From positions 1 to 17,285 of the forward strand of contig JASHVH010000472.1 in NCBI GenBank assembly GCA_030039575.1: DNA of 17,285 nucleotides. The letters run 5' to 3'. The notes under the pieces were generated by a model that worked only from the letters and a program-made list of their open reading frames with translations, made no database searches and was not told the origin of the DNA. The stretch is from Acidimicrobiales bacterium. Lineage in GTDB: Bacteria; Actinomycetota; Acidimicrobiia; Acidimicrobiales; Palsa-688. The translations under genes and the position numbers were made by a program. How positions within the stretch are numbered: position 1 is the first letter of the stretch; each line of letters begins with the position of its first letter. Below, one piece after another: positions 1,732-16,427 of this stretch.

Positions 1732-2472
1732 ATGAAGCTTTCCGTGCTCAGTAGTTCTACGCGTCTGGTCGCGGCCTCGGCAGTCGTACTGGCCACCCTC
1801 GGCCTTCTGTCGGCCACTGCGGAGGCAGCAGGCGCCGGGGCCCCGACAACGAGCTCAGTGCTCACTTCGGCCAAGAGCGCGATCGGAAAGCAGACCAGCG
1901 TCCACCTGGTGCTGACGTCGAAGTCCAGTTCGACCGCGGTCGAAGAGCACATAAAGGCCGACCTGGAGAAGACCAGCGGTATCGAGACCATCTCGGTAGG
2001 CAGCGACACGGCCATCCTCAAGCTCACCCCCAACTACGCCTATTTATCGGGCAACTCGTCCGGGCTGACCAAACTCTTCGGGCTGACCTCGGCTGAGGTG
2101 AACAAAATCCATGGGCACTGGGTGTCGTTCAAAGCGGGCACAAGTCAGTACAAGGACCTAGCCGCTTCACTAACGGTTTCTTCAGTCGCCAGCGTCCTCC
2201 CCGCGGCCAAGGGCACGAAGCTGCACACGGCCACGCCCCCGGCCAAAAAGTGGTACACCCTGAAATGGGAGACGGCTGCGACCAGCTCGGAGCCGGCGTT
2301 GGCCAACACGCTCATCCTCTCGGCTATCGGCGCCACCCTGCCGGTTCAGGAGACGTCGACGGCTCCAGGAGGGGGCAAAGAGACAGTGGCTCTCTCCAAG
2401 TGGGGCGAGCACGTCCTGGTGAGCGCACCGGCCGCCGGGTCGACCATCCCCTTCTCCAACCTCTCTAGCTGA
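1732..2472 (+). CDS. Secreted protein of unknown function
   Basis: The product has 246 residues starting at ATG 1732. Residues 1-33 form a signal peptide: a short charged N-terminus (MKLSVLSSSTR), a hydrophobic core (LVAASAVVLATLGLLSA) and small residues around ATAEAAGAGA where cleavage is expected. There is no lipobox Cys, so it should be exported and released or wall-associated, not a lipoprotein. The mature part is rich in Ser, Thr, Ala and Lys and contains no cysteine. The pattern VHLVLTSKSSSTAVEEHIKAD, then a run of beta-prone segments ending in VALSKWGEHVLVSAP, is loosely reminiscent of the LppX/LprG lipid-carrier fold of actinobacteria, but I cannot confirm that family. It stands alone between a sugar-metabolism pair and a convergent gene. 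I do not recognise a specific function. Confidence 0.75.
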   Translation: MKLSVLSSSTRLVAASAVVLATLGLLSATAEAAGAGAPTTSSVLTSAKSAIGKQTSVHLVLTSKSSSTAVEEHIKADLEKTSGIETISVGSDTAILKLTPNYAYLSGNSSGLTKLFGLTSAEVNKIHGHWVSFKAGTSQYKDLAASLTVSSVASVLPAAKGTKLHTATPPAKKWYTLKWETAATSSEPALANTLILSAIGATLPVQETSTAPGGGKETVALSKWGEHVLVSAPAAGSTIPFSNLSS

Positions 2473-4492: not shown

Positions 4493-6102
4493 AGGGCGTT
4501 TCTTCTCGTGAGCGATGCGTAAGTCAACCTGTATTTTCGGGCCAAGGCCATCGCGTATGCCCGGCCGTCCGCCGGCCGCCGTGTCAACTTGTAAGTCCGC
4601 ACATCGGGATCCTCGGGGACGACATCTGCCACCATGCTCACCGTCGCCTCGTTGAGGGAGGCCAGCTCGTCGGCGAAGGTGACGTACACGCACAGCGCGC
4701 CCAGGTCGCTCACCCGTCCCAAGATCTGTCCGCCAATGAAAAGCGAGTCAGCCAGCGTGGTGGAACTGAAGCTCTCGTTCATGACGAGGACGCTGCGGCC
4801 GGTGGCCTGTTCGAGCATATCGCGCACCCGCACGAGCTCGTCGTCGAGCTTCCCACGCAGGCTCTCGAGCCGCTCTTCTCGTTCGAAATGGCTGAAGATG
4901 CGGTCGGGCAGGGCGAGGCGAGCCCGCCGCGCCGGCACCGGGAGGCCGAGGCTGGCCAGGAAGTGAAGTTGGCCGAACATGCGGGCGAAGGTCGTCTTGC
5001 CGCCTTGGTTGGGCCCAGTCACAACCAGGACGCGTTCACGTCCTGCGAGTTCGAAGTCGTTGCAAATGATGGGAGAACCCCTGCCGGCAAGAGTGCTTGC
5101 CAGCGCGATGTCGTACGCACTCTCCACGCTGGTCACGCTCGAGTGCCCCGACACCTCGGGATAGCACAGCGGGAGCCCAGCGTCCTTCAATTTTTGTGTG
5201 AACTCGAGGTAGGCAAGGAAGAACTGGACCTCTCGGTCGAAGTTGGAGACGGTAGGGTCGACGAAGTCGTTATGGGCTGAGTAACACGCTTCCAGGCGCG
5301 CGAAGATCTCCGGGTAGAGCCTCGCCACCCGCTCCAGGACCTGCGCCTGCACATGGTTCGCGTCCCTGAGGTCTCGGTACTCGGTCAAAAATTCTTTGAC
5401 CTCCGCCTGCCTGAACTTGGAAAAAGTTTGCTCGATCTCCCAGCTGTAGTCGGGCTCTCCCGCGTAAGGGCCGACAGTCACTCGCGTGCCCCGGATGAGC
5501 ATCGAGTACTGGGTTCCCGCCAGGTCCGTGCGCAGCTGACGGACTTCCCTGCCGAGCGCGACGAAACCCTCGGAACGGGCGTAGTCCTCTAGGTAGAGCT
5601 TCAACCCTTTGAACCCCCTCGACCGGAGCGGCAGTCGTGCCAAGTCGTCGAGCAGACCTGTCACGGCCGCCCAATAATTCTCAGCCGCGTCGAGGAACCA
5701 TCCCTGCTTGAAGAACGGCGTCTCGATCTGGCTCATGCCCCTCAAGAAGGAGCGAGCCCGGCGCATGCGCTCGGCGAAAGCGCGCATGCGGTCCGCCACG
5801 TCGCTGTTATCGAGGTCCTGGCATACCTCCTGGCGATAGCGCACGTGGGCTTCCCCGAGCGGAGAATAGAAAAAGGCTGCTAGGTCATATTCTTCCCTTC
5901 CTGCCAGGATCTTGCTGACCACTTGGTCGAGGTGAAAATCACCGAAAAAGTCAGGCGCCTCCGAGTTCTCCTCACCCCCGGCTTGGGCAGGGCCCTCGAA
6001 AGGCACCCTGAAAGAGGGCAAAGCCTGTGGGGCAAATAGACGGTCTTGTGGTGGGGCAGGTGTCTCCTCAGCGTCGTCTCGGTAGAGGATCGAGGGGTTC
6101 AT
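4489..6102 (-). CDS. MutS-like ABC ATPase (first of two), no mismatch-recognition domain
   Basis: The product has 537 residues. ATG 6102 overlaps the previous stop as ATGA, and its own stop overlaps the next start as ATGA. Domain V of MutS is clear: Walker A GPNQGGKTT (363-371; canonical MutS has GPNMGGKST), Walker B SVLVMNES (437-444) and NESFSST (442-448) in place of the usual DELGRGTS. The H-loop THY-EL is VTFADEL (474-480), so its His is lost here although kept in the downstream paralogue. Residues 50-340 are mainly helical (core/lever-like); domains I and II of true MutS are missing. The first 50 residues are Pro/Glu-rich and probably flexible. The two paralogues share the NESF(S/A)ST signature and layout but are clearly diverged, which suggests an asymmetric heterodimer in which only some ATP sites are standard. 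Mismatch repair proper is unlikely. Confidence 0.87.
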   Translation of the reverse strand: MNPSILYRDDAEETPAPPQDRLFAPQALPSFRVPFEGPAQAGGEENSEAPDFFGDFHLDQVVSKILAGREEYDLAAFFYSPLGEAHVRYRQEVCQDLDNSDVADRMRAFAERMRRARSFLRGMSQIETPFFKQGWFLDAAENYWAAVTGLLDDLARLPLRSRGFKGLKLYLEDYARSEGFVALGREVRQLRTDLAGTQYSMLIRGTRVTVGPYAGEPDYSWEIEQTFSKFRQAEVKEFLTEYRDLRDANHVQAQVLERVARLYPEIFARLEACYSAHNDFVDPTVSNFDREVQFFLAYLEFTQKLKDAGLPLCYPEVSGHSSVTSVESAYDIALASTLAGRGSPIICNDFELAGRERVLVVTGPNQGGKTTFARMFGQLHFLASLGLPVPARRARLALPDRIFSHFEREERLESLRGKLDDELVRVRDMLEQATGRSVLVMNESFSSTTLADSLFIGGQILGRVSDLGALCVYVTFADELASLNEATVSMVADVVPEDPDVRTYKLTRRPADGRAYAMALARKYRLTYASLTRRNAL

Positions 6103-6539
6103 AGCTGGGCAATCGCTTCCTCAACTGCGGCCAGGAGCTGCCTGTGCAGTTGGGGCCAATCGTCGGGGATGTCATATAGTCCCCAGTGCTTGCGCAGCTT
6201 TTCAGGCGACATATCTATGAGGTCGGCCCACAGGATGTGCAGTGCTCCCCGCAGGGCCCGTCGCCCGTCGAGCACTGCCGGCTCGAGCCCAAGGGTGTTG
6301 GCCGCGATGTCGAGCGCTCTTTCGAGGGGCCCGAGGACGTGGTCCAGGTCCGGCACGCCTTCCAACGCGGAGAGCCGCCGGTTCGAGGAAACCTCTTGTT
6401 TCACTGTCGAGAGTTGGGTATCGATGTGGCGCAGCAGGACCACGATCCGTTCGAGTGCCGGCGTCGGCCGTAAAGACGACGGAGGCCCGCCCGGTCCATC
6501 ACTGCGGTTAGCGTCTGGCTCCCCGGTAGCTGCCATCAT
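6099..6539 (-). CDS. Small helical protein of unknown function between GTPase and MutS-like genes
   Basis: The product has 146 residues. ATG 6539 overlaps the GTPase stop (ATGA) and its own stop overlaps the next ATG, so it is translationally coupled on both sides; an in-frame ATG follows immediately at 6536. The first 28 residues are Gly/Pro/Asp-rich and likely disordered (GEPDANRSDGPGGPP). The rest is predicted helical, with heptad-like segments (ALERIVVLLRHIDTQLSTVKQEVSS; LDHVLGPLERALDIAANTL) and a C-terminal motif KHWGLYDIPDDWPQLHRQLLAAVEEA. No signal peptide, membrane segment, Cys or catalytic motif is seen. The position suggests an adaptor linking the GTPase with the MutS-like ATPases, but nothing in the sequence proves this. 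I do not recognise the family. Confidence 0.8.
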   Translation of the reverse strand: MMAATGEPDANRSDGPGGPPSSLRPTPALERIVVLLRHIDTQLSTVKQEVSSNRRLSALEGVPDLDHVLGPLERALDIAANTLGLEPAVLDGRRALRGALHILWADLIDMSPEKLRKHWGLYDIPDDWPQLHRQLLAAVEEAIAQL

Positions 6540-8251
6540 CGTTGGCCCGCCAGCGCCAGCGCTGCTTCCGCCGCCCTGCTGGCCGCTTCGCTGGCCCGCT
6601 GCTGTTCCTGGCGTCCGGCCTCCGCGACTCCGTGCAACTGCTCGGCCCGCGAGGCAGCAGCCAAGATGGTCTCGGCCGAGGCGGCCAGCTCGGCCGCCAT
6701 CGCCGTCTCGAAACGACGCCTGACCGCGTCCAGGCGTTGGGAGATGTCCCAGCGAGCCCGGCCGGCGTGCTTGTCAAACTCTCGAGCCAAATCGCTCTCA
6801 GCCCGGTGGAGAAGGCGCTGCCGCCGCAACGACCGGGGCAACAAGAGGCGCAGGACGCGGTCGATGTTCTCGGTCGAGCTGCCAACATGCAGGAAAAGGT
6901 AGAAATATCGTTCTCGTTCCTCGGCCACCTCCGGTACGGCCAGCCGAGGGAGTTCCACCTGGAAAATGTCCGCCGCCGCGGCCCGGACGGCGTTCACCCG
7001 GTCCTGGGTGCGGTCCCGGAAGCGCTCGGCCAGCTTTTTCCAGGACCCCTCAGCCCGCTCGGCCTCCGCCTGACGGAAGACCTCGAAACTGTCCCGCACA
7101 GATGACTCGACCGCCCGCCGCAACTCTTCTTCGAGACGAGAGACGGGAGTTGACCGTGCGACGTCTACGAGCCGAGCCTCGCATTTAGCAGGAGCGTTCG
7201 CGGCGAAGTCTGCCAACGCCTGGCCGATGGCGCCGCCCAAGGCGTCAACATCTCGCTGCAACAGCGTGCACTCGTCGTTGAACGCTTGACGCTGCTCCGC
7301 TGCCGCCGCTCGTAGTCTTTCCACTCGCTCGCGGAGCGAGACCGCGTCGAGCTGTGCCGTGGCCGCTTCGATCCTGAGCGAATCGTCCAGCTCATGGGCG
7401 AGCCGGGCGAGCTCCGAGCGGGCCGTCGTGACGCGCGCCTCGACCAGGTCGAGCTTTACGAAGCGGTCGAAGGCGCCAGAAAAAGCGGCAAATTCGCCTC
7501 CCTGGCCCTCCTCGGCCATTTGGCCGACCAGGCGCGTCCCGAGAGCGGCCCGCGCACTGACCCGCCACAGCCTCTCCGTCCGCCCGAGCTCGGCGCCCAG
7601 CGCGTTTGACACGAAGCGAGTCACCTCGTCGAGCTCGGCCTGGCTCAGGTGGTCGGCGCGGTTCAGGACAAAAAACGTCGGTGATCGGCGCTCGGACAAA
7701 GCGGCCAACAGCTTCCGCTCCGCCTCCGAAAGCGGGGCGTCGGCCGAGAGCACCACGATGGCTCCATCGGCTTCCAAGAGAGCCCGAGCTGCTGCTTCAT
7801 CGTGGCGGAACACCGAACCGGTACCGGGCGTGTCGACGAGCACTACGCCTGGGCGCAGCAGTTCGGCAGGGGCCCGGGCTTCAACTCGGCTGACCTGGCG
7901 CTCGTTGCCGGGGTTGCCGGCTTCGGTGACATAGTCGGCCAACTGACCGAGGTCGATGTCCTCGGTGGTCCCGTCGGTGTGAACAACTGTGGCGCCCAGC
8001 GGCCCGTACGCCACCTCGGTGGCCACAGCCGTGAGCGGGAGGACGCCCGTTGGCAATAGGTCCAGGCCAAGAAGGGCATTGACCAGCGTGGACTTGCCTC
8101 GCTTGAACTCTCCTAGAACGGTAACGTTGAAACGCCCCCTGGCCACGCGCTCTGCCAGCCCGGTGGCACGGGTGGACAGCTCCTGCCTATCGCCGGCCGC
8201 AGCCGCCAAGTCTCCAGCCGCCTTCGCCAGTTGCTCCAGCTCGGTGTCCAC
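6536..8251 (-). CDS. Dynamin-like GTPase, first gene of fluoride-riboswitch operon
   Basis: The product has 571 residues from GTG 8251, chosen for the strong AGGAGGT (complement of 8257-8263) 5 nt upstream. The longer open frame to 8626 would run through the riboswitch and is rejected. All G motifs are present: G1 GEFKRGKST (47-55), G3 DTPG (140-143), G4 NRAD (197-200), and a G5-like SAR (232-234). A conserved Thr in the LPLTAVATEV segment (residues 71-80) serves as G2. The GEFKRGKSTLVNALLG form is typical of bacterial dynamin-like proteins. After the GTPase domain come long helical stalk segments, a hydrophobic patch YFYLFLHVGSS that could be a membrane-binding paddle, and an Ala/Glu-rich coiled-coil C-terminus. 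Dynamin-like proteins remodel or protect membranes in a GTP-dependent way. Coupling to MutS-like ATPases is unusual; the role in fluoride response is inferred only from the leader. Confidence 0.9.
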   Translation of the reverse strand: MDTELEQLAKAAGDLAAAAGDRQELSTRATGLAERVARGRFNVTVLGEFKRGKSTLVNALLGLDLLPTGVLPLTAVATEVAYGPLGATVVHTDGTTEDIDLGQLADYVTEAGNPGNERQVSRVEARAPAELLRPGVVLVDTPGTGSVFRHDEAAARALLEADGAIVVLSADAPLSEAERKLLAALSERRSPTFFVLNRADHLSQAELDEVTRFVSNALGAELGRTERLWRVSARAALGTRLVGQMAEEGQGGEFAAFSGAFDRFVKLDLVEARVTTARSELARLAHELDDSLRIEAATAQLDAVSLRERVERLRAAAAEQRQAFNDECTLLQRDVDALGGAIGQALADFAANAPAKCEARLVDVARSTPVSRLEEELRRAVESSVRDSFEVFRQAEAERAEGSWKKLAERFRDRTQDRVNAVRAAAADIFQVELPRLAVPEVAEERERYFYLFLHVGSSTENIDRVLRLLLPRSLRRQRLLHRAESDLAREFDKHAGRARWDISQRLDAVRRRFETAMAAELAASAETILAAASRAEQLHGVAEAGRQEQQRASEAASRAAEAALALAGQR

Positions 8252-8284
8252 AACGCACCTCCTACCTCGAAACCGACCAGTCCG

Positions 8285-8361
8285 GTAGGAGCCATCGTCC
8301 CCGTTGAAAACGCCGCTATCTGGGCGCCAGGGCCCGGGGCAGTATGGCGAGCTCCATCGCC
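8285..8361 (-). promoter_or_regulatory. Fluoride riboswitch (crcB motif) upstream of the GTPase operon
   Basis: Read on the minus strand, the 5' half is GGCGATGGAGCTCGCC (8361-8346) and the 3' half GATGGCTCCTAC (8296-8285), both matching the crcB/fluoride aptamer. P1 pairs GGAGCT (8355-8350) with GGCTCC (8293-8288). The pseudoknot pairs GGCG (8361-8358) with CGCC (8349-8346). After ATACTG, P2 is closed by CCCC (8339-8336) and GGGG (8302-8299), with an extended apical part. Expression platform: CCTACC (8289-8284) can pair with GGTAGG (8266-8261), whose end overlaps the Shine-Dalgarno. This predicts translational control, on with fluoride. Confidence 0.9.
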
Positions 8362-8367
8362 ACCCAC

Positions 8368-8373
8368 AGCTTA
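8368..8373 (-). promoter_or_regulatory. Putative -10 box of the GTPase/MutS-like operon
   Basis: TAAGCT (complement of 8368-8373) fits TANNNT and would place the transcription start at about 8361, the 5' edge of the riboswitch. No clear -35 hexamer was found upstream of it. Confidence 0.45.
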
Positions 8374-8412
8374 CCAGCCACGAGGCCCTGGCCGTTTGGG
8401 GGAGCCCGCTGC

Positions 8413-8443
8413 TTGCTCTCTCCAGCCCCGATCGCGATAAGGT
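8413..8443 (+). promoter_or_regulatory. Putative promoter of the hydrogenase-like operon
   Basis: TTGCTC (8413-8418) and TAAGGT (8438-8443), spacer 19 nt, or alternatively GATAAG at 8436 with spacer 17. Either puts the start near 8450, immediately before the fluoride aptamer. It is divergent from the GTPase promoter, with the two -10 boxes about 65 nt apart. Confidence 0.45.
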
Positions 8444-8451
8444 GTTCCTCA

Positions 8452-8554
8452 GCCGGATGAGGTCCCGGCGGTCGCAACCGTTCCCGGGCGTGGCCGAACC
8501 TCCCAAATGGGCGTCCCAGGTGGGGATAATCCCAGATGGGATGATGGCTTCTAC
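8452..8554 (+). promoter_or_regulatory. Fluoride riboswitch (crcB motif) with long insertion, upstream of first hycD
   Basis: The 5' half is GCCGGATGAGGTCCCGGC (8452-8469): pseudoknot strands GCCG (8452-8455) and CGGC (8466-8469) flank GATGAGGTCC. The 3' half is TGATGGCTTCTAC (8542-8554). P1 pairs GAGGTC (8459-8464) with GGCTTC (8546-8551) using two G-U wobbles. The segment between halves is 72 nt, versus 24 nt in the leader before the second hycD. It contains a CGGT/ACCG hairpin and three near-palindromes of form CCCANNTGGG. Downstream, CTACGCG (8551-8557) pairs perfectly with CGCGTAG (8569-8575), ending directly against the AGGAG Shine-Dalgarno (8576-8580). Translational on-control by fluoride is predicted. 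Confidence 0.8.
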
Positions 8555-8590
8555 GCGAAGAGTTCGTGCGCGTAGAGGAGAACAGGTTCC

Positions 8591-9547
8591 GTGGTGCTGC
8601 CATCTGGCGTTGTGCAGGCGCTCCAAGTCGTGGTGGTGCTTGTCTTCGCCCCTTTTGTGAGCGGCGCCATAAGTCAGGTCGAAGCCCGGTTCGAGGGCCG
8701 CCGGGGCCCCAGGGTGCTCCAGCCCTACTACGACCTGGCCAAGTTGTTCCGCAAGGAGACCCTCGTACCAGAAGGTGCCAGCTGGGTCTTCTTGGTGGCG
8801 CCGATAGTGGCGTTCACGTCGTACCTGACCGTGCCTTTGCTGATCCCGGTCCTGACCGACTTCCCGTTACCCCTCGGTTACACGGGCGACATACTCGGCG
8901 GCGGCCTCATCCTCGCTCTGGCCGGGTTCTCAGTGGCGTTGGCGGCGGCAGAGACGGGTGACCCGTACGCCCAGCTTGGTAGCAGCCGGGCAATGACGTT
9001 CGGGGCACTGATCGAGCCCTCGGTCCTGTTCGTCGTCTTCACGGTGGCGCTTATCACAACCACTGACTTGCCTTACGCTATGGCTGCCGTCGACCGCTCC
9101 TCCCTGGCCCAGGTCCTGCGGCCGGCGCACGTGTTCGCCGCCGCCGCCTTCTTCCTCGTCGTGCTGTCCGACACGGGGCGGATCCCGGTCGAAACGCATG
9201 CCAGCACGCTTGAGTTCGGGATGATCGACGAAGCGAGGGCCTTCGAGCATTCGGGGCCTGCGCTTGCCCTATTGAAGTGGGGAACAGCCATAAAGCAGCT
9301 GGTCCTCTACGTCATCCTCGTGGACGTCTTCGCCACCCCGTGGGGTTTGGCCGGATCCCCGCAAATCGGTTCTGTCCTATTGGCTATCCCCATCCTCCTT
9401 GGCAAGGCGCTGGTCGCCGGGACCATTTTCGCCCTGATCGACAACACCTTCTCGAAATTGCGCCTCTATAAGATAACCGAGTTCATGGCGTCTGCCTTCG
9501 CCCTGTCGGCGGTCGCGGTGCTCGTCCTCTACCTGGGTGGCGGCTGA
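8591..9547 (+). CDS. hycD: HycD/NuoH-like membrane subunit of hydrogenase-related complex (copy 1)
   Basis: The product has 318 residues; GTG 8591 is preceded by AGGAG (8576-8580), and GTG 8594 is an alternative. The family signature is clear: RGPRVLQPYYDLAKLFRKE (38-56), GSSRAMTFGALIEPSVL (130-146), TGRIPVETHAST (195-206) and EFGMIDEARAFEHSG (208-222). About eight membrane helices are expected. In complex I and group 4 hydrogenases this subunit connects the peripheral arm to the antiporter-like subunits and carries acidic residues of the proton path. The usual DNPATHLELT after GRIPV is ETHASTLEFG here, a notable divergence. First gene of a plus-strand operon; the next ATG starts 2 nt after its stop. 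It corresponds to mycobacterial hycD (about 316 residues). Confidence 0.92.
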   Translation: MVLPSGVVQALQVVVVLVFAPFVSGAISQVEARFEGRRGPRVLQPYYDLAKLFRKETLVPEGASWVFLVAPIVAFTSYLTVPLLIPVLTDFPLPLGYTGDILGGGLILALAGFSVALAAAETGDPYAQLGSSRAMTFGALIEPSVLFVVFTVALITTTDLPYAMAAVDRSSLAQVLRPAHVFAAAAFFLVVLSDTGRIPVETHASTLEFGMIDEARAFEHSGPALALLKWGTAIKQLVLYVILVDVFATPWGLAGSPQIGSVLLAIPILLGKALVAGTIFALIDNTFSKLRLYKITEFMASAFALSAVAVLVLYLGGG

Positions 9548-9549
9548 CG

Positions 9550-10248
9550 ATGCTCATTCCCATTCTGGCCAACGTCCCCACCCCCCCTTCAACCTTTGAC
9601 GGCATAACGGAAGCGATCGCCGTCTTCGTGCTCTTGTTGGTCTTCGTGATGCTGCGCCAGGCGTTGTTGCACTCACAGGTCCGCCTGTACGCCCTCCAGT
9701 CCTTGGCGGTGTCGGCACTGGCCGGGGTACTGGCGACGAACGAACACGCCGGCGACCTCTTCGTATTGGCCGGGTTGTCGTTCGTGCTCAAGGTGATCAT
9801 CGTCCCAGTTGTCGTCCTCCACCTGCTGCGCGAGGCAGAGGTGGACCTGGCCGGGAGCCAGCGCTTCGGCGTGGCGAGCGCGGTGCTCCTTGGCGTGGCC
9901 GTTTCGGTCTTCGCGTTCCTGGCCGTGGGCTCGGTCCACATCGGCGGTTCTGGAGCGAAGGGCCTCCCTGTGCCGGCACTGGGCGCCGCGGCAGCCACCG
10001 TACTGGTCTCGTTCGTCCTGGTCATGTACCGGGCGGATGTAGTCTCGCAAGCCATTGGTTTTTTTTCCATGGAGAACGGCGTCTCCGTGGCCAGTCTCGT
10101 CATTGCCGCGCGCATGCAGTCCATCCTCGAGGTCGCCTTCCTTTTCGACCTGTTAGTGGCGGGGGTGGCGTTCGCCCTGATCATGCGCGCCCACCATCGC
10201 AGGAGCGCCTCCCTGTCCACCGAGACACTTGACCAGCTCCGCGGCTGA
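9550..10248 (+). CDS. hycP: HyfE/HycP-like (NuoK-related) membrane subunit
   Basis: The product has 232 residues, starting 2 nt after the stop of hycD. Seven or so hydrophobic helices span the protein, with ENGVSVASLVIAARMQ (about 176-191) matching the HyfE-type motif GF--MENG. This is the NuoK-like small antiporter-module subunit of group 4 hydrogenase-like complexes, similar in length to mycobacterial HycP (about 220 residues). It sits between the NuoH-like and NuoN-like genes, as expected for the family. The conserved Glu of MENG lies in a membrane helix and is probably part of the proton path. A run of eight T (10059-10066) encodes the preceding Phe-Phe and is unusual in this GC-rich DNA. 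Confidence 0.9.
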   Translation: MLIPILANVPTPPSTFDGITEAIAVFVLLLVFVMLRQALLHSQVRLYALQSLAVSALAGVLATNEHAGDLFVLAGLSFVLKVIIVPVVVLHLLREAEVDLAGSQRFGVASAVLLGVAVSVFAFLAVGSVHIGGSGAKGLPVPALGAAAATVLVSFVLVMYRADVVSQAIGFFSMENGVSVASLVIAARMQSILEVAFLFDLLVAGVAFALIMRAHHRRSASLSTETLDQLRG

Positions 10249-10281
10249 AGGTAGTCCCAAAATGCCGAAAGTGCGCCCCCT

Positions 10282-11814
10282 ATGAGCCTCGTCCTGATCG
10301 CCATCATGGTGGTACCGCCGGTAGCCGGGGCGACCTCGTGGTGGGCGGGACCGCGCCTTAGGGGCGCGGCGACCGTTACCAGTGGCGCAGCTACGTTTGG
10401 GCTGGCGCTGGCCCTCGTCCCGGCCGTCGCCAGAGGTCGCCCCGTCAGTCGCGCTCGCACTGCCGGGGGTGGTCAGGTCGTCCTCTACGGCCAGCACGCG
10501 GTCACCGCTCTTGGCAACTGGCTGAGGGTCGACTCGCTTTCACTCGTGTTCCTCCTGGCGACGGCGTTCCTGTACGCGTTGACCGCCATTTTTGCGGTGG
10601 GATATGTCTTTGCCGAGCACGGGGCGGATGCCATCTACCGTCGCCGCTTGTTCGCCGGTATGAACATCTTCGCCTGGGCCATGGCGATGGCACCTCTGGT
10701 CAACAACATCGGGCTGTTGTGGGTCGCCATCGAAGTCACGACGGTGGTCAGCGCGCTGCTCGTTGCTATCGAGGGGACAGACAGCGCCGTCGAAGCCGCC
10801 TGGAAATATGTCTTGCTCGGTTCACTCGGCCTTGGTTTGTCGCTGCTGGCCACTGTGGTCATGTACCACGCCGGCAGTTATTCGCTGGGCCAGGCGTACG
10901 ACCTGTCCTTCACCAAGTTGGTGGGTGCTGCAGCCCGGTTCCCCGCCGGTACGGTCAGGCTGGCCTACTTATTGGCCGTCCTCGGCTTCGGCACCAAGGT
11001 CGGCTTTTTCCCCGTCCACACCTGGCTGCCCGACGCCCACTCCGAGGCGCCTACCCCGGTTTCGGCATTGCTGTCGGGTGCTTTGCTGGCCACCTGTTTT
11101 TACGCCATCCTGCGTTATTACCAAATAACCGAGCGGGCCGCGGGTGTCGCTTTTGCACGCGATGTACTGGCCGGCTTCGGGGTCGCCACCCTGTTACTGG
11201 GCGCGCTGTACCTGGCCTCTCAACGTGACCTCAAGCGCATGCTGGCCTACTCGTCCGTCGAGCATATGGGCATCCTTGCCATCGGGATGAGCTTCGCATC
11301 TCCTTTGGCCGTAGCGGGCGTGCTCTTGCACGTGCTCGCTCACGCGGCGGCCAAAGGTACGGCCTTCTTCGGGGCCGGGAGCGTGGTCCGAAAGCTGCGC
11401 ACCAAGGACCTCGAGCGGATCCGAGGAGGCATGGGCTTACTCCCGTGGAGCGGGCCGTTGCTTGTCGCGGCGATGTTGGGCCTGTCAGCTCTTCCCCCGT
11501 TCGGCACTTTCCGCTCCGAGTTTTCGATTGTGGCCGGCGGTCTCTCCGGCGCCTCCACCGGGCTGGGGCAAGTGCTGTCTGCTGTCTTGGTCGTACTGGT
11601 TACCCTCGCCTTTTTAGGCCTCTCTTGGCACATCACCCAGGTCATGGCCTCGCCCGGCCCGAGTGGCGGGACGACTGTGGCCAAGGGCGAGACGAGCAAG
11701 TTAATGGTGTTGGCCATGTCCCTGGCACTGCTGGGCCTGGTCATACTCGGGGTCCACCCTCCCGCCCAGCTCGACAACCTGTTCCACGGCGCCGTTAGCG
11801 AGCTAGGAGCATGA
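10282..11814 (+). CDS. hycQ: HyfF/HycQ-like (NuoN/Mrp antiporter family) proton-translocating subunit
   Basis: The product has 510 residues, ATG 10282. It is a proton_antipo_M family membrane protein with about 14 helices. Key channel residues are present: Glu151 in LLWVAIEVTTVVSALLV (helix 5 Glu), Lys239 in GFGTKVGFFPVHTWLPDAH (helix 7 Lys and the discontinuous helix), and His350/His354/Lys358 in LLHVLAHAAAKG (helix 8 to 12 region). SQRDLKRMLAYSSVEHMG is the family signature. An intact charged axis implies working ion translocation. The 33-nt gap after hycP contains a seven-codon ORF (ATG 10262, product MPKVRPL) whose TGA overlaps this ATG, possibly allowing translational coupling. It corresponds to mycobacterial HycQ (about 488 residues). 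Confidence 0.92.
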   Translation: MSLVLIAIMVVPPVAGATSWWAGPRLRGAATVTSGAATFGLALALVPAVARGRPVSRARTAGGGQVVLYGQHAVTALGNWLRVDSLSLVFLLATAFLYALTAIFAVGYVFAEHGADAIYRRRLFAGMNIFAWAMAMAPLVNNIGLLWVAIEVTTVVSALLVAIEGTDSAVEAAWKYVLLGSLGLGLSLLATVVMYHAGSYSLGQAYDLSFTKLVGAAARFPAGTVRLAYLLAVLGFGTKVGFFPVHTWLPDAHSEAPTPVSALLSGALLATCFYAILRYYQITERAAGVAFARDVLAGFGVATLLLGALYLASQRDLKRMLAYSSVEHMGILAIGMSFASPLAVAGVLLHVLAHAAAKGTAFFGAGSVVRKLRTKDLERIRGGMGLLPWSGPLLVAAMLGLSALPPFGTFRSEFSIVAGGLSGASTGLGQVLSAVLVVLVTLAFLGLSWHITQVMASPGPSGGTTVAKGETSKLMVLAMSLALLGLVILGVHPPAQLDNLFHGAVSELGA

Positions 11815-11818
11815 GAAA

Positions 11819-13405
11819 ATGAGGCCCGGGCAAGCATTGACGAGCGGGGACCAGTCCTGGTCCGAAATCAGCGTCCCCGCTAACCACTTGGCTGAAGTGG
11901 TCGCGTCCTCTGCTCGCACTGAGGGCTCGGGTCAGCCAGACGCAAGTGCGTCACGCCGGACGAAGCGCTTTGCCGGGCTGTTTGGGTCGGCCCTCGAGGA
12001 CGGTTCGGTGCTATTGCGCGTCGCCTTGGCCCGCTACGGAGGGTTCGAGGTCGTGAGCTCAGTCGTGGCGCCGAGGCCCGACGGTCGTCCCGGTAGTTAC
12101 GAAGCCCTAACCCCCGTCGTACCAGGGGCCGCCTGGTACGAGCGCGAGGTGGCCGACCTGTTCGGCCTGGCGCCCGAAGGCCATCCCCGTATCGACCCTC
12201 TCGTGTTACCACGTAAAAAGGGAGAAGATCCGCCAAGACCGGGGTGGAGGATGCCGGGCCAAGATCTGCCAATAGTGCCGGACGAAACACCGCTACCTGC
12301 CCACCTGGCCGGAGAAGGGGTCTTCACCCTCCCGTACGGCCCGGTCCGCTCCGGGGTTTTCGAGTCGGTGCAGTACTTGGTGGAAACGCCGGGGGAAGAC
12401 ATACCACACCTCCGTGCCCGCGTGTACCATAAACATCGCGGCATCGAGGTCCGCTTCCAGGGCCTGTCACCGGCCGATGGCGTCCTACTGGCCGAGCGGG
12501 TAGAGGGAGTGGCTTCGGTCGCGCACGCCACCGCCTTTTCCCAGGCTGTCGAATCTCTGAGCGCCGGAGAGGTACACGTCCCGCCGGCGGCCATGCTGGT
12601 CCGGGTGGTGCACGCCGAACTGGAGAGGGTGGCCAACCATCTGGACTCGACCGCCCGGCATACCGAAGCGGCCGGGCAGGCCGTTGCCTACGCCCGCCTG
12701 ACCTGGCACAAAGAACGCATCATGCGCCTGCGAGCCGACCTCTGCGGTCACCGGTTCGGCCGCGGCGTGGTCGTCCCCGGCGGGGTCGCCGGCCCACCGA
12801 TGTTGGCTCCCGGCCCCACGCTCGGCCAACTGGCGACCATAGAGGCTGATATTCGCGCTGATATTCATTTGCTGATGGCCACGTCATCGTTTATCGACCG
12901 TCTCCGGGGCACGGGCGTGCTCAGCCCTGAGGTGGCCTCGTCCAGGGGAGCGATCGGTCCTGTCGGGCGGGCGTCGGGATCGGACGAGGACCTCAGGGCC
13001 TACCGTCCCTACGGTGCCTACAGGACTATCCAGATGCCTGCCCATCGTTACCGTGACTCGGGCGACGCCCTCGGGCGCCAGCTGGTCCGCAACGAGGAAA
13101 TCTGGGGTGCCTTCGAGGTTTGCCGTCGCGCCCTAGAAGCGCTGGAGGGTGTCCCCGCCGACGGGCCGTGGACGGCACCGGTCGCCCCGGTCGACGGGAC
13201 GGCTTGGGGCTGGGTGGAAGCACCCCAGGGCGAGCTCCTCTACCTGGTCGAGACGGAGGCCGGACGCCTCCGCCGGGTGAAGCCTCGCTCGGCTTCTTTC
13301 CATAACTTGGCCCTTTTCCCCGACGTTTTTACCGGCGACATTTTCACGGACTTTGCTTTCATCGAGGCGAGTTTTGGCTTGTCGATTGCCGGGGTGGCGA
13401 ACTGA
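11819..13405 (+). CDS. hycE: HycE/HyfG-like fused NuoC-NuoD subunit lacking NiFe-ligand cysteines
   Basis: The product has 528 residues; AGGAG (11805-11809) lies 9 nt before ATG 11819. The N-terminal NuoC-like domain is marked by WYEREVADLFGLAPEGHPRIDPLVLP (106-131). The NuoD/hydrogenase large-subunit domain follows from FTLPYGPVRSG (169-179). Compared with hydrogenase-3/4 large subunits, the proximal motif RVCGIC is RVEGVA (227-232) and the C-terminal DPC--C is GLSIAG (520-525). All four NiFe-binding cysteines are therefore gone; the only cysteines are Cys309 and Cys435. The GPxH His is Arg177. The fold markers H-TAFSQAVE, VHAELERVANHLDSTA and RADIHLLM are well kept. It is thus a hydrogenase-related subunit, as in Ehr complexes or complex I, and cannot hold a NiFe site. 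The stop overlaps the next start (TGATG-type). Confidence 0.92.
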   Translation: MRPGQALTSGDQSWSEISVPANHLAEVVASSARTEGSGQPDASASRRTKRFAGLFGSALEDGSVLLRVALARYGGFEVVSSVVAPRPDGRPGSYEALTPVVPGAAWYEREVADLFGLAPEGHPRIDPLVLPRKKGEDPPRPGWRMPGQDLPIVPDETPLPAHLAGEGVFTLPYGPVRSGVFESVQYLVETPGEDIPHLRARVYHKHRGIEVRFQGLSPADGVLLAERVEGVASVAHATAFSQAVESLSAGEVHVPPAAMLVRVVHAELERVANHLDSTARHTEAAGQAVAYARLTWHKERIMRLRADLCGHRFGRGVVVPGGVAGPPMLAPGPTLGQLATIEADIRADIHLLMATSSFIDRLRGTGVLSPEVASSRGAIGPVGRASGSDEDLRAYRPYGAYRTIQMPAHRYRDSGDALGRQLVRNEEIWGAFEVCRRALEALEGVPADGPWTAPVAPVDGTAWGWVEAPQGELLYLVETEAGRLRRVKPRSASFHNLALFPDVFTGDIFTDFAFIEASFGLSIAGVAN

Positions 13406-14193
13406 TGCCCTGGGTGACGCGCGGCCTGCGCAACGGCGTGCTCACCAGCCGTTACCCGGCCCGCCCCGATGGGTACGGCGAGAACTGGCGCGGTGGCGTA
13501 GCCGTAAAGCCAAGCCCTACAAGAGGTCCCGACGCGGACCTGCCCGACATTTGCCCCACGGGCGCCATCGCCGGAGCGCCGCACGGGGGGCCTGCCGTCG
13601 ACCGGGGCAAGTGCATCCTCTGCGGCCGCTGCGTGAAAGAACGGCCCGATCTCTTTGACTTCGACCGGTCCTTCGAGGTGGCCAGCATCGCTCGTCCGGC
13701 GTTGGTCGTGCCTCCTACGGAGGAAACCTCCGCATCTTTGGCCGCTCTTCGTGAAGATCTTGCCCGGCGAGTCAGGGCGCTGCGCCGGTCGGTCCACTTA
13801 CGCCACGTCGACGCCGGCTCCGACGGCTCTGAAGAATGGGAAATAGCTGCCCTCTTAGGCCCCGTCTATGACATCCACCGGCTCGGCATATTTTTTACCG
13901 CCAGCCCTCGCCACGCCGACCTCCTTCTCGTGACCGGTGCCGGCTCGGCCGGGATGGCCGGGCCGCTCCGCTCGACCTATGAAGCCATGCCTGACCCGCG
14001 GATAGTAATGGCGGTCGGCACGGACGCAATTAGCGGCGGGATCGTTAGCCCGAGTTACGCCACGGCGGGCGGTGTGGGCGGCACCGTGCCGGTCGATGTC
14101 TGGGTGCCGGGTTCGCCACCAAGCCCCTTCTCGGTCCTGCACGGGATCCTGATGGCTATCGGTCGCTTACCAATGCAGGCGGCCTCGCCGTGA
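13405..14193 (+). CDS. Ferredoxin-NuoB-like small subunit lacking proximal-cluster cysteines
   Basis: The product has 262 residues; ATG 13405 overlaps the previous TGA. The N-terminal ferredoxin-like domain has ICPTGAI (Cys50) and CILCGRC (Cys70, 73, 76), enough for one [4Fe-4S] cluster, with the second cluster motif lost. The C-terminal domain follows the NuoB/hydrogenase small-subunit pattern: LRHVDAGSDGSEEWEI (132-147), ADLLLVTG (171-178), VMAVGTDAISGG (201-212), VPVDVWVPGSPPSP (228-241). In hydrogenase-3/4 these read DAGSCNGCE, GTCA-SGG and PGCPPRP. The four proximal-cluster ligands are replaced by Asp140, Glu143, Asp207 and Ser237. The protein has only the four ferredoxin cysteines. It probably couples the ferredoxin domain to the large subunit. 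It resembles the product of the gene preceding mycobacterial hycD (an annotated oxidoreductase), but carries the ferredoxin domain at its N-terminus. Confidence 0.9.
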   Translation: MPWVTRGLRNGVLTSRYPARPDGYGENWRGGVAVKPSPTRGPDADLPDICPTGAIAGAPHGGPAVDRGKCILCGRCVKERPDLFDFDRSFEVASIARPALVVPPTEETSASLAALREDLARRVRALRRSVHLRHVDAGSDGSEEWEIAALLGPVYDIHRLGIFFTASPRHADLLLVTGAGSAGMAGPLRSTYEAMPDPRIVMAVGTDAISGGIVSPSYATAGGVGGTVPVDVWVPGSPPSPFSVLHGILMAIGRLPMQAASP

Positions 14194-16265
14194 GGCAACT
14201 GCTTTTATTAATTGCCCTTTTACTCATGGCCGGCGGCGCGGTCGTCAACTTGGTGGCCGGGAGCGGGCCGAAATGGTCCCGCTGGGCTTGCTACGGGATG
14301 GCATCAGTGGCCTCGGCACTGGTAACGGCTACGGGCGCCTTGTGCCTAACGGGGCACGCCGTGAGCGTGGACCTCGGCAACCTGTTGGACTTCGGCCAGA
14401 CCAGGCTCCTCTTCGACCCTTTGGCCGGCTTGTTCCTGACATTGATGGGGGGCCTGGGCCTGGTCATCTCCCTGTCCATGCTCAACTGGCCGCCCCCCTC
14501 CCCGGCGGGGGGGCGAGCGTCCGGGTGGGCTTACATGCTCCTGCTGGCGGCAGTGACCGTGGTGGTAGTGGCAGCCGACGCGTTCACGTTCCTGTTCGCT
14601 TGGGAAGCGCTGACCGTCGCATTTTATGTGCTCGTCCTCGCCACCCGGGCCGACCGTTCCCAACCGGGCGCCGCTTGGGCCACGGCCGGGGTGGGGGCGT
14701 GGGGGGGCGCGTCACTACTCGTCGGGTTCTCGTTACTAGCTGGAGCCGCCCACTCCTTCGACTTCGCAACGTGGGCGCGGCTGTCGGCCAGCGCCGTCCA
14801 CGCCCCGGCTTATGCCCTCGTTGTCTTCGGCTTTGCCACAAAGGTGGGCTTGGCCCCCTTTCAGGGCTGGATGCCACGCGGCTACCCGGCGGCCCCTGGC
14901 CCGGCCCGGGCCGCCATGGCCGGCCTGGCTGTCAACGCCGGCTTCTACGGCCTTTGGCGGTTCCTGGCGGTACTCGGCCGGCCCCCGGGCTGGCTGGCCG
15001 TCACGGTGCTCGTCCTGGGCGGCGTCACTGCCTTATTGGGCATAACGTTCGCCGCCGTCCAATCGGACCTCAACCGCGTCATCGCCTATTCCAGCATCGA
15101 GAACGGCGGGCTCATCATGGTCGGCTTCGGGATGGCCCTGGCCGGCGCTTCGGAGGGGAACGGGGTGCTCACGGCCGTCGGGCTCCTGGCTGCATCGCTC
15201 CAGTTGCTCGCTCATGCTGTAGCTAAGTCGGGCCTCTTCCTCGGGGCGGCCAGGTTCCAGCCTGGTGGCAGCGAGGCTCCGTTGGACGGGCTATCGGGCA
15301 TGCTTCACACGCAGGGTTGGGCCTCCGCGGCATTCGCCGCGTCCGCGCTGACCCTGGCGGGCCTGCCACCGACGATCGGTTTTGTCTCGGAGTGGTTCAC
15401 GTTCGAGGCGTTGATGCAGCAGTTCCGGCTCCACTCGTTGGCCCTACGTCTGGCGACAGCGAGTGCTGGGGCCCTCGTCGCTCTCACCGCCGGCGTAGCC
15501 GCCCTCACCTTCGTGCGCCTGCTGGGCTTCGTCGTCTTGGGGCGAGGGAGCGGGACAAAACCGCGCCAGGCCGACGTCCCCAGCCGGTGGTCACTCGGGG
15601 CGACGGCGGTGTTGTGCTTCGGCCTGTCGGCAGCGGCTCCCTGGACGGTGCGCTACATAGGCCGCGGGCTAAGCCCAATCGTGGCTCGCTCAGTGGTCGA
15701 CGGCGCCCTGAAGTCACCTTGGGTCCTTCAGCCGGTCTTCTCCAATTTCTCCGCCTTGTCGCCGACATGGCTATTTGTGGTGATGCCGATCGGGTTCTTG
15801 GCTGTCACCCTGGCCACGGTGGTCTTGTCGAGTGGACGTTTTCTGTCGGTGCGCCGGGTCCCTCCGTGGCATTCGGCCACCCCCGGGGTGCGTGGCCCTG
15901 ATAGCTACAACGCCTTCGCTTACGCCAACCCCATCCGGCATGTGCTGGCCAACATCCTCGGCACCCAAAAGGAAGTTGCTGCGGTACCCAGCCGGGCGGC
16001 CAGTGACATCGGCGATGGCACGGTCGCGCTCGAGGGTTCCGACGACCTCGAAGCCGAAGCCGGCCCGCACCGCCACACACATGCAGTGTTCAGTGCCAAG
16101 GCTGTCGAACCAGTCGAGTCCTATCTGTACCAGCCACTACTGGCTGCGTACATGGCCGTGGTGCGGGCGGCAAAGAAGCTGCAATCCGGGCGTCTCGACG
16201 CCTACGTGGGGTACATGCTGTTCGCCCTTGTCGCCATCCTCATCGTCGCTGCGGCCATGGGCTGA
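14190..16265 (+). CDS. hyfB: HyfB/HycC-like (NuoL-related) proton-translocating subunit
   Basis: The product has 691 residues; GTG 14190 overlaps the preceding TGA (GTGA). About 14 antiporter helices carry FLFAWEALTVAFY (Glu139) and GFATKVGLAPFQGWMPRGYPAAP (Lys218). QSDLNRVIAYSSIENGG is the family signature, and LAHAVAKSGLFLG supplies the central His/Lys. The C-terminal part has AFAYANPIRHVLANILG, then VEPVESYLYQPLLAAYMAVVRAAKKLQSGRLDAYVGYMLF. This is the HycC/HyfB-type lateral helix and final membrane segment. The motif normally H-WLP-AHPAAPS is QGWMPRGYPAAPG, so a His conserved in relatives is Gln here. Together with HycQ it provides two antiporter-like channels. It is the last gene of the operon and is followed by a new promoter and riboswitch. 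Confidence 0.9.
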   Translation: MRQLLLLIALLLMAGGAVVNLVAGSGPKWSRWACYGMASVASALVTATGALCLTGHAVSVDLGNLLDFGQTRLLFDPLAGLFLTLMGGLGLVISLSMLNWPPPSPAGGRASGWAYMLLLAAVTVVVVAADAFTFLFAWEALTVAFYVLVLATRADRSQPGAAWATAGVGAWGGASLLVGFSLLAGAAHSFDFATWARLSASAVHAPAYALVVFGFATKVGLAPFQGWMPRGYPAAPGPARAAMAGLAVNAGFYGLWRFLAVLGRPPGWLAVTVLVLGGVTALLGITFAAVQSDLNRVIAYSSIENGGLIMVGFGMALAGASEGNGVLTAVGLLAASLQLLAHAVAKSGLFLGAARFQPGGSEAPLDGLSGMLHTQGWASAAFAASALTLAGLPPTIGFVSEWFTFEALMQQFRLHSLALRLATASAGALVALTAGVAALTFVRLLGFVVLGRGSGTKPRQADVPSRWSLGATAVLCFGLSAAAPWTVRYIGRGLSPIVARSVVDGALKSPWVLQPVFSNFSALSPTWLFVVMPIGFLAVTLATVVLSSGRFLSVRRVPPWHSATPGVRGPDSYNAFAYANPIRHVLANILGTQKEVAAVPSRAASDIGDGTVALEGSDDLEAEAGPHRHTHAVFSAKAVEPVESYLYQPLLAAYMAVVRAAKKLQSGRLDAYVGYMLFALVAILIVAAAMG

Positions 16266-16279
16266 CGACCGGCTAGGGC

Positions 16280-16310
16280 TTGACGGCGGTCGGGGGGCGC
16301 CCGCTAATGT
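16280..16310 (+). promoter_or_regulatory. Putative promoter of the second hycD gene
   Basis: TTGACG (16280-16285), a 19-nt spacer and TAATGT (16305-16310) would start transcription near 16317, some 14 nt before the fluoride aptamer. The layout matches the promoter before the first hycD. Confidence 0.5.
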
Positions 16311-16330
16311 GTGACCGGAACCGCAGTTAC

Positions 16331-16383
16331 AGCGATGAGGCCCGCTTGCTGCGAGGCGTTCTTGCCTCGCTGATGGCTTCTAC
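16331..16383 (+). promoter_or_regulatory. Fluoride riboswitch (crcB motif), compact form, upstream of second hycD
   Basis: The 5' half AGCGATGAGGCCCGCT (16331-16346) is almost identical to the well-studied Thermotoga fluoride aptamer core GCGATGAGGCCCGC. The 3' half is TGATGGCTTCTAC (16371-16383). P1 pairs GAGGCC (16337-16342) with GGCTTC (16375-16380). The pseudoknot pairs AGCG (16331-16334) with CGCT (16343-16346). P2 is a perfect 7-bp stem GCGAGGC/GCCTCGC (16351-16357/16364-16370). GGCTTCT (16375-16381) can alternatively pair with AGAAGCC (16414-16420), which overlaps the AGGAGAAG Shine-Dalgarno region and competes directly with P1. Translational on-control by fluoride is predicted. Confidence 0.93.
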
Positions 16384-16427
16384 CCAGCAACTGACAAGTC
16401 TCAGGAGCAGAGGAGAAGCCGATCGAA

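Follow-up and report, generated by a model that had tools for sequence, protein, structure and literature searches.

Probable fluoride riboswitches ahead of a GTPase/MutS operon and of Ehr-type operons in an Acidimicrobiales genome

What would connect a dynamin-like GTPase, MutS-like ATPases and a set of genes filed under hydrogen metabolism to fluoride? The question is raised by a 17,285-nucleotide stretch of DNA from an Acidimicrobiales bacterium, referred to as the window. The window is contig C96 of the metagenome-assembled genome (MAG) G000, which is divided into 565 contigs and is 68% complete. Two operons diverge at about 8.4 kb. The leftward operon encodes a dynamin-family GTPase, a 146-residue protein and two MutS-family ATPases. 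The rightward operon encodes HycD1, HyfE, HyfF, a NuoCD-like large subunit, a ferredoxin-NuoB-like small subunit and HyfB. The leaders of the GTPase gene, of hycD1 and of a second hycD gene near the contig end each carry a candidate aptamer of the crcB (fluoride) class, designated aptamers 1, 2 and 3. Quite probably, these leaders are translational ON fluoride riboswitches that drive a stress regulon composed of the GTPase/MutS operon and of energy-converting-hydrogenase-related (Ehr) complexes that are not hydrogenases.

Three fluoride aptamers and their ribosome-binding sites

All three leaders are almost certainly fluoride riboswitches. A sequence-only reading of the window had recognised the crcB/fluoride aptamer layout in them, and the layout is borne out by a structural descriptor in all three, by the Rfam model in E-value mode in two and by a held-out covariance model, R1, in two. 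The descriptor is hand-weighted and demands a P2 helix, a pseudoknot between the P2 loop and the 3' strand, a P3 helix and a tail. It matches the window at 8361-8284 (score 18.4), 8453-8555 (15.8) and 16331-16384 (18.0), and the conserved GATG at the start of the P2 loop is present in 3/3 leaders. At a score of at least 14, the descriptor finds 58 matches in 1.13 Mb of real loci, selected for the presence of such genes or riboswitches, and none in two dinucleotide-Markov randomised versions of these loci (2.25 Mb in total). The original limit of one G-U pair, which excluded the hycD1 copy, was loosened after real examples had been seen and the descriptor was then recalibrated, so its scores are not unbiased. 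The descriptor also overlooks true copies, finding none in loci L144 and L174 where Rfam has them, and a "none" from the descriptor alone is weak. Model R1, built from the hycD leaders of ten relatives with the window copy excluded, is counted as the unbiased test. It recovers aptamer 2 at 8449-8559 (43.8 bits, E=2e-11) and aptamer 3 at 16327-16388 (21.6 bits, E=4e-5).

A scan of the window with the Rfam fluoride model (RF01734) at the gathering threshold of 34 bits returns 0 matches. The sequence-only reading had named such an empty scan as grounds for its own rejection; it is not accepted as such here because the E-value mode, the descriptor and the held-out model agree. In E-value mode, RF01734 finds aptamer 1 at 8370-8279 (-) with 28.4 bits (E=2.2e-4) and aptamer 3 at 16322-16389 (+) with 21.8 bits (E=0.031). 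Aptamer 2 is absent from this output for the window, and in whole-genome mode it is partially overlapped by a match at 8500-8560 (13.3 bits, E about 1). That none of the three copies reaches the Rfam cut-off weighs against the assignment. The low scores are likely due to the very long P3 loops of aptamers 1 and 2 and, in aptamer 2, also to a hairpin inserted after P2. Copies above the gathering cut-off occur in 19 of 61 genomes (this one and its relatives) and in five plasmid stretches.

The same reading had described a covarying P1 helix. The covariation is confirmed, but the helix is the pseudoknot formed between the P2 loop and the 3' strand. All five pseudoknot pairs are present in each window copy, two of them being G-U in aptamer 2. 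Among 26 Rfam-selected aptamers, 120 of 130 pseudoknot cells are paired, compared with a shuffled mean of 108.8, and 0/5000 shuffles reach as high a count; both G-C/A-T and C-G/T-A exchanges are seen. The 26 are those of 38 Rfam-selected loci with both flanks full, and six come from the present genome, including the window GTPase copy. Across ten related loci, the hycD1 leaders belong to one class, with a P2 that is mostly CCGG and a tail like GCTRATGGCCTCTACGC. The insert directly after P2 in hycD1-type leaders is variable in sequence and predicted to fold into a hairpin in 12/12 cases, with p<0.05 against shuffles in six of them (p 0.09 for the window copy). A MutS leader from the same genus (L098) has a comparable insert. 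Aptamers 1 and 2 form a divergent, back-to-back pair, as the sequence-only reading had it, with P2 arms that begin about 90 bp apart. It is scarcely credible that the leaders are chance matches or other hairpins. Such an origin would suit the low Rfam scores, but it is largely ruled out by the randomised controls, the E value of the held-out model and the covarying pseudoknot, and the recurrence of the leader class in ten relatives speaks against it as well.

In each window leader, the 3' strand of the aptamer can pair with the ribosome-binding site downstream, which suggests a translational ON switch. The strand CTCCTACC of the GTPase leader is exactly complementary to GGTAGGAG within the ribosome-binding site. 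In the hycD1 leader, CTTCTACGCG pairs with CGCGTAGAGG with one G-U, and in the hycD2 leader, AGAAGCC pairs with GGCTTCT. In the proposed mechanism, the 3' strand of the aptamer, GGCTYCTACC, would pair with the ribosome-binding site when fluoride is lacking. Because this strand is also required for the pseudoknot, binding of magnesium-fluoride should lock it there and release the site. Fluoride binding and the ON polarity are presumed from the known class to which the aptamers belong.

Control at the ribosome-binding site is very likely. Over 58 leaders, the mean duplex energy is -14.5 kcal/mol with the leader's own downstream region, -11.3 with mismatched leaders and -10.6 with shuffled downstream sequence, and 0/5000 permutations are as good. 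Shine-Dalgarno-like letters are part of 50 of the 58 duplexes, and a start codon follows closely in 48. Several observations count against such control. The best duplex has no close start codon in ten leaders, the pairing beats 95% of a leader's own shuffles in only 27/58, and some leaders pair better with foreign downstream regions, the own region ranking as low as 49 of 58. The aptamer strand CTCC is by itself anti-Shine-Dalgarno-like. The set also contains at least one probably false member (L098 at 6770). In 45 of 56 leaders, compared with a background of 6.4%, a promoter-like TANNNT box stands no more than 27 nt ahead of the P2 arm, and transcription therefore probably starts at the aptamer.

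The Ehr complex and its clade

The sequence-only reading had given mutS-type and formate-hydrogenlyase-type genes as targets of the crcB motif and found that both operons fit. Both kinds of target are documented, mutS and formate hydrogen lyase in a passage of Weinberg et al. 2010 (PMC2864571), and formate hydrogen lyase also in part of a 2024 review (PMC11139923). The names stand in print, but they do not apply literally to the window, where the metal ligands and the mismatch-recognition domain are missing.

There is little doubt that the hycD operon encodes an Ehr complex and not a hydrogenase. It combines complex I-like modules with a NuoCD/HycE-like subunit lacking the N-terminal NiFe cysteines, the combination by which Ehr complexes are recognised. 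In an alignment to Escherichia coli formate hydrogenlyase (FHL), Glu and Ala occupy the first nickel CxxC of the large subunit EhrL, while the small subunit EhrS has Asp140, Glu143, Asp207 and Ser237 at the four ligand positions of the N2 cluster. A pattern search, as distinct from a column-by-column alignment, finds no DPCxxC in the C-terminal 120 residues of EhrL. In a set of 120 proteins (the window protein plus 119 homologs, listed as the best among 5859 with E<=1e-15), the N2 positions read DEDS in 100, DDDS in 16, DVDS in two, DEDA in one and DEDN in one, without a single cysteine; the four ferredoxin cysteines are kept in 120/120. No formate dehydrogenase is found among the 14 window proteins scanned with Pfam.

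The tie to fluoride riboswitches is a property of one Ehr clade. In a tree of 70 large subunits, every riboswitch-led EhrL falls within a single clade of 32. Inside the clade, a riboswitch leads 28 of 28 operons whose leader is visible, compared with 0 of 30 outside operons with a visible hycD start. Related rows do not count as independent. The 28 consist of 25 found by the descriptor or Rfam, plus L144 (RF01734, 44.5 bits), L081 and L172, and the remaining four members are truncated by contig ends. L081 and L172 are counted on weaker grounds: the hycD leader of L081 scores 20.4 bits in Rfam and is also a training row of R1, and L172 has an over-threshold switch directly ahead of EhrL with no hycD seen. 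The 70 rows come from the same class and phylum, GTDB contigs and plasmids. They include some hydrogenases and relatives of complex I, and eight of the 38 outside rows show no hycD start. The phylum search matched 96 of 396 genomes, from which 39 stretches were used, covering the majority of the top-scoring matches and some weaker ones. The plasmid search matched 70 records, and 11 stretches were examined.

In a more careful tree of 53 rows, the fluoride clade has a support of 99/97. This tree omits 17 long, odd or near-duplicate rows, including clade members L172, L082, L078, L133 and L135, and carries a warning that two long outside branches meet. The clade spans Actinomycetota and Pseudomonadota, and perhaps Bacillota, the Bacillota member L172 having a very long branch and an unsure placement. 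Five of the seven loci closest to the window large subunit among named relatives belong to MAGs of Acidimicrobiales or other actinobacteria, and the others to Hephaestia caeni and a Bathyarchaeote. The trees omit L084, with a large-subunit piece of <850 bases, and L100, with no large subunit; the hycD leaders of both carry the aptamer. Outside loci, whether of Ehr, hydrogenase or complex I type, are present in 29 genomes searched in full with RF01734, and no riboswitch adjoins any of these loci. Twelve of these genomes have some RF01734 match, and the two matches of G599 adjoin its clade member. The outside plasmid loci L171 and L180 have no riboswitch at the Rfam cut-off, and L176-L179 and L080 were checked by the descriptor and R1 only. 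In each of L141 (3143/4091) and L143 (2729/3651), two riboswitches in tandem, some 0.9 kb from each other, lie upstream of the Ehr operon.

Fluoride stress is likely the cue for this Ehr clade, and the published formate hydrogen lyase targets presumably correspond to it. A literature search, with most subscription papers outside its reach, found nothing that connects fluoride with Ehr or dynamin; the one paper listed on fluoride riboswitches together with hydrogenase is a PFAS transcriptome study. All 32 clade members lack the N-terminal nickel pair. The N2 ligands are intact in some branches (e.g. Hephaestia and Burkholderia), partial in others and gone in 14/14 rows of the window subclade; readings of the third N2 position of L132-L135 differ, making it uncertain. 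Four Ehr rows outside the clade (L080, L140, L142 and L176) have also lost the N2 cysteines wholly or mostly. This loss either arose more than once or is older; it detracts from the fluoride reading, in that N2 loss in itself is no mark of fluoride.

These distributions bear on whether the hycD operons could encode a functional formate hydrogenlyase or group 4 [NiFe] hydrogenase, with fluoride inducing a fermentation-type hydrogen metabolism. The gene order is FHL-like, and so are the predicted folds. The EhrL model, with a predicted local distance difference test (pLDDT) score of 85.9, superimposes on FHL subunit 5 (7z0s_E) with a template modelling (TM) score of 0.87, and the EhrS model (pLDDT 74.8) best matches 7z0s_G. 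The 2024 review, in the part mentioned above, counts formate hydrogen lyase among the common targets of fluoride. However, the N-terminal NiFe pair is missing throughout the clade, the N2 cysteines are missing in the window protein and its 119 closest listed homologs, and hydrogenases with both CxxC motifs (L155-158 and L161) have no adjacent riboswitch. A hydrogenase is thus very improbable, and is rejected on the missing N-terminal NiFe and N2 ligands.

The proposed fluoride regulon in the genome and on plasmids

The sequence-only reading regarded the locus as a dedicated fluoride-responsive island. This is supported, and the island reaches beyond the window. The MAG contains about ten candidate riboswitches, three in the window, five on C522, one on C357 and one on C205. 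Those outside the window precede paralogous GTPases (C357 and C205), a histidine phosphatase with enolase, a FabH-like enzyme, an MFS protein and an unknown. In a strict-filter RF01734 search of 61 genomes (this one and 60 relatives), 20 have matches, the present genome and one other with eight each. Ehr-A, the Ehr operon beginning with hycD1, co-occurs at >=45% identity with the GTPase in 4/5 genomes, compared with 4/290 (p=1.1e-6), under an identity cut-off chosen after the list was seen. A point against a fluoride regulon is that CrcB is not found in the MAG, which is itself only 68% complete. Two CLC-type genes are present, placed only at the CLC-type level.

The proposed regulon would consist of two parts, one comprising the dynamin-like GTPase, the 146-residue protein and two MutS-family ATPases without mismatch-recognition domains, and the other the non-hydrogenase Ehr membrane complexes. 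Scans of four MutS-like proteins from this genome find MutS_V as the sole MutS domain and no mismatch-recognition domain I. Mismatch repair is rejected as their role, since the recognition domain is lacking. The positions of the window features are listed in Table 1.

Table 1. Genes, probable aptamers and predicted ribosome-binding sites of the window
Feature	Position	Strand	Basis or remark
MutS-family ATPase b, domain V only, start codon not fixed	2951-4480	-	best NCBIfam model KamC, far under cut-off
MutS-family ATPase a, domain V only	4489-6102	-	Pfam MutS_V 4.2e-16, no further MutS domain
146-residue protein, GTPase operon	6099-6539	-	no Pfam match; adjoins GTPase in L010 and, in pieces, L098
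Dynamin-family GTPase	6536-8251	-	Pfam Dynamin_N 6.3e-25
GTPase start codon GTG	8251-8249	-	set by comparison with ATG of L010
Aptamer 1 ribosome-binding site GGTAGGAGG	8258-8266	-	complement of aptamer strand CTCCTACC 8291-8284; predicted duplex -15.4 kcal/mol
Probable fluoride aptamer 1, GTPase operon leader; P2 GGCG/CGCC, pseudoknot GGAGC/GCTCC, long P3 loop	8279-8370	-	
Probable fluoride aptamer 2, hycD1/Ehr-A leader; P2 CCGG/CCGG, pseudoknot GAGGT/GCTTC (two G-U), long P3 loop	8449-8559	+	
Hairpin inserted between P2 and GAACC linker, common to hycD1-type leaders	8469-8495	+	structure prediction
Aptamer 2 ribosome-binding region GCGCGTAGAGGA	8568-8579	+	pairs with aptamer strand 8547-8557; predicted duplex -16.3 kcal/mol
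HycD1, NuoH/HyfC-like membrane subunit	8591-9547	+	Pfam NADHdh 4.1e-34
HyfE-like membrane subunit	9550-10248	+	weak Oxidored_q2; constant place within operons
HyfF/NuoM-like antiporter subunit	10282-11814	+	Pfam Proton_antipo_M 4e-49
EhrL, NuoCD/HycE-like large subunit without N-terminal NiFe cysteine pair	11819-13405	+	alignment; predicted model
EhrS, ferredoxin domain (4 Cys kept) and NuoB/HycG-like domain	13405-14193	+	alignment; predicted model
HyfB/NuoL-like antiporter subunit	14190-16265	+	Pfam Proton_antipo_M 2.1e-38
Probable fluoride aptamer 3, hycD2/Ehr-B leader; P2 AGCG/CGCT, pseudoknot GAGGC/GCTTC	16322-16389	+	
Aptamer 3 ribosome-binding region AGGAGAAGCC	16411-16420	+	pairs with aptamer strand GGCTTCT; predicted duplex -10.5 kcal/mol
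HycD2, opening gene of second Ehr operon (Ehr-B), truncated by contig end	16428-17285	+	Pfam NADHdh 1e-28

Related segments are found on other contigs of the genome. The order of GTPase, 146-residue protein and MutSa at window positions 4489-8260 is repeated on C357 (L010 628-4126), with 83%, 70% and 44% identity, respectively. On C205 (L011 5802-6800, 4544-5048), a third riboswitch-led GTPase looks broken, with approximately the first 260 residues matching, and lies beside a HyfB remnant, suggesting duplication and decay of the island in one genome or strain mixing in the MAG. In the region 10898-11290 of C522 (L009), a riboswitch precedes a short fragment of MutSa, behind which lies a gene for an MFS transporter; the L084 island contains an MFS gene of 69% identity to it. 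C522 also has an over-threshold riboswitch at 1741-1804 (-), whose aptamer strand matches a GGTAGGAG ribosome site and behind which no long conserved open reading frame is recognised. A further riboswitch at 7037-7095 (-) lies ahead of a FabH-like 3-oxoacyl synthase III gene at 5623-6624 (-), an unexpected fluoride target.

Islands of this kind are also carried by plasmids, in which Ehr occurs with pyrophosphatase, dynamin, MutS, crcB, CLC or enolase genes and three to seven over-threshold riboswitches. A Burkholderia multivorans plasmid encodes MutS, dynamin, pyrophosphatase, DUF190, Ehr and MFS proteins, with four over-threshold riboswitches in 19 kb. A conjugative plasmid of B. cenocepacia combines dynamin, pyrophosphatase, HAD, DUF190, Ehr, CrcB and a CLC-type channel with seven riboswitches, and a Mycobacterium branderi plasmid combines UspA, histidine phosphatase, NUDIX, Ehr, enolase, DUF190 and MFS with three. 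The plasmid of Alicyclobacillus sp. ALC3 from acid-mine sediment (L172) has CrcB, two DUF190 genes and a divergent EhrL, with six over-threshold riboswitches within 19 kb. An unannotated Caballeronia plasmid stretch contains three riboswitches.

Possible roles and comparison with known systems

Membrane arms of NuoH-, NuoL- and NuoM-like subunits are built for the movement of H+ or Na+. The antiporter-like arm of Ehr could thus move H+ (or Na+), holding pH and membrane potential against the influx of hydrogen fluoride (HF) and powering fluoride export. Ion or pH homeostasis under fluoride stress is tentatively proposed as the job of Ehr by analogy with these arms. Parts of the 2024 review (PMC11139923) describe that HF permeates membranes, that fluoride acidifies the cytoplasm and that F- export depends on the proton-motive force. 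Passages of PMC4378227 and PMC10284858 state the function of Ehr complexes as unknown.

How such homeostasis would be driven can be read in two ways. Branches that keep N2 may achieve it through redox chemistry, and Ehr might still be a redox pump, passing electrons via the ferredoxin domain to quinone or another acceptor and pumping H+ to power fluoride export. The ferredoxin cluster cysteines, retained by the window protein and by all 119 of its closest listed homologs, favour such a pump, as do the four N2 cysteines kept in clade members L079, L091, L092, L093, L094, L096, L139, L143, L170, L174 and L175. On the other hand, the window subclade has no N2 cysteine in 14/14 rows and no known cluster beside the former active site, and in the alignment to Thermus Nqo4 a glycine occupies the position of what we take to be the quinone-binding tyrosine. 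A redox pump is possible but doubtful. The missing N2 cluster in the window branch speaks against ordinary redox coupling and is compatible with a non-redox mechanism. A bolder and unlikely extension is that the fluoride-induced clade is a dedicated fluoride-stress machine, of which the window subclade is no longer a redox enzyme but an ion or fluoride extruder without redox chemistry. The proximal Fe-S site would then have turned into the conserved D-(E/D)-D-S pocket, with a glutamate in place of the nickel site, and the complex I-like membrane arm would be run or gated otherwise than through electrons passed to the former Fe-S site, perhaps through binding of metal-fluoride or ions.

It is rather improbable that the GTPase/MutS-like operon serves for reactivation, freeing NTPases from fluoride-metal-nucleotide dead-end complexes, or for the remodelling of HF-damaged membranes. 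A P-loop GTPase and MutS-type ATPases under fluoride control would suit such a role, and the best NCBIfam match of MutS-b is the reactivase ATPase KamC, far under the cut-off. However, this similarity is confined to the ATPase core.

Under the preferred reading of riboswitch-driven, non-hydrogenase Ehr complexes, the clade-wide tie gives Ehr a concrete physiological cue, the first found in the literature searched, together with an easy assay. A large membrane machine filed under hydrogen enzymes thereby provides a clue to the job of an unexplained protein family. The tie also casts doubt on the published statement that formate hydrogenlyase is under the control of fluoride riboswitches. The conserved acidic replacement of the N2 ligands raises the further question of how a relative of complex I could function in the absence of the cluster.

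Mobile fluoride islands as such are already known. Part of PMC5533749 describes GI3 of Enterobacter cloacae FRM, a mobile fluoride-resistance island with fluoride-induced enolase, phosphoglycerate mutase, pyrophosphatase, UspA and CrcB under a fluoride riboswitch, resembling the islands described here. That part reports one riboswitch for GI3, compared with several in the present islands, and the words "hydrogenase" and "MutS" are absent from the main text. At the level of the switch, the window leaders share with RF01734 a P2 hairpin with an 8-nt loop, the pseudoknot between loop and 3' strand, P3 and the conserved tail. They differ in their long P3 loops, in the hairpin between P2 and the GAACC linker of hycD1-type copies, and in falling under the Rfam cut-off. 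A passage of Weinberg et al. 2010 (PMC2864571) stresses overlapping terminators, whereas here the aptamer strand can pair with the ribosome site. The Ehr subunits of the window are homologous to those of FHL/hydrogenase-4 (7z0s) and match them in predicted fold, but lack the N-terminal NiFe and N2 ligands, and the scanned window proteins include no formate dehydrogenase. Like the Ehr complexes in the relevant parts of PMC4378227 and PMC10284858, the window complex has a complex I/FHL-like gene set without NiFe cysteines. It differs from them in that its clade is tied to fluoride riboswitches and its subclade has also exchanged the four N2 cysteines, mostly for D, E/D, D and S.

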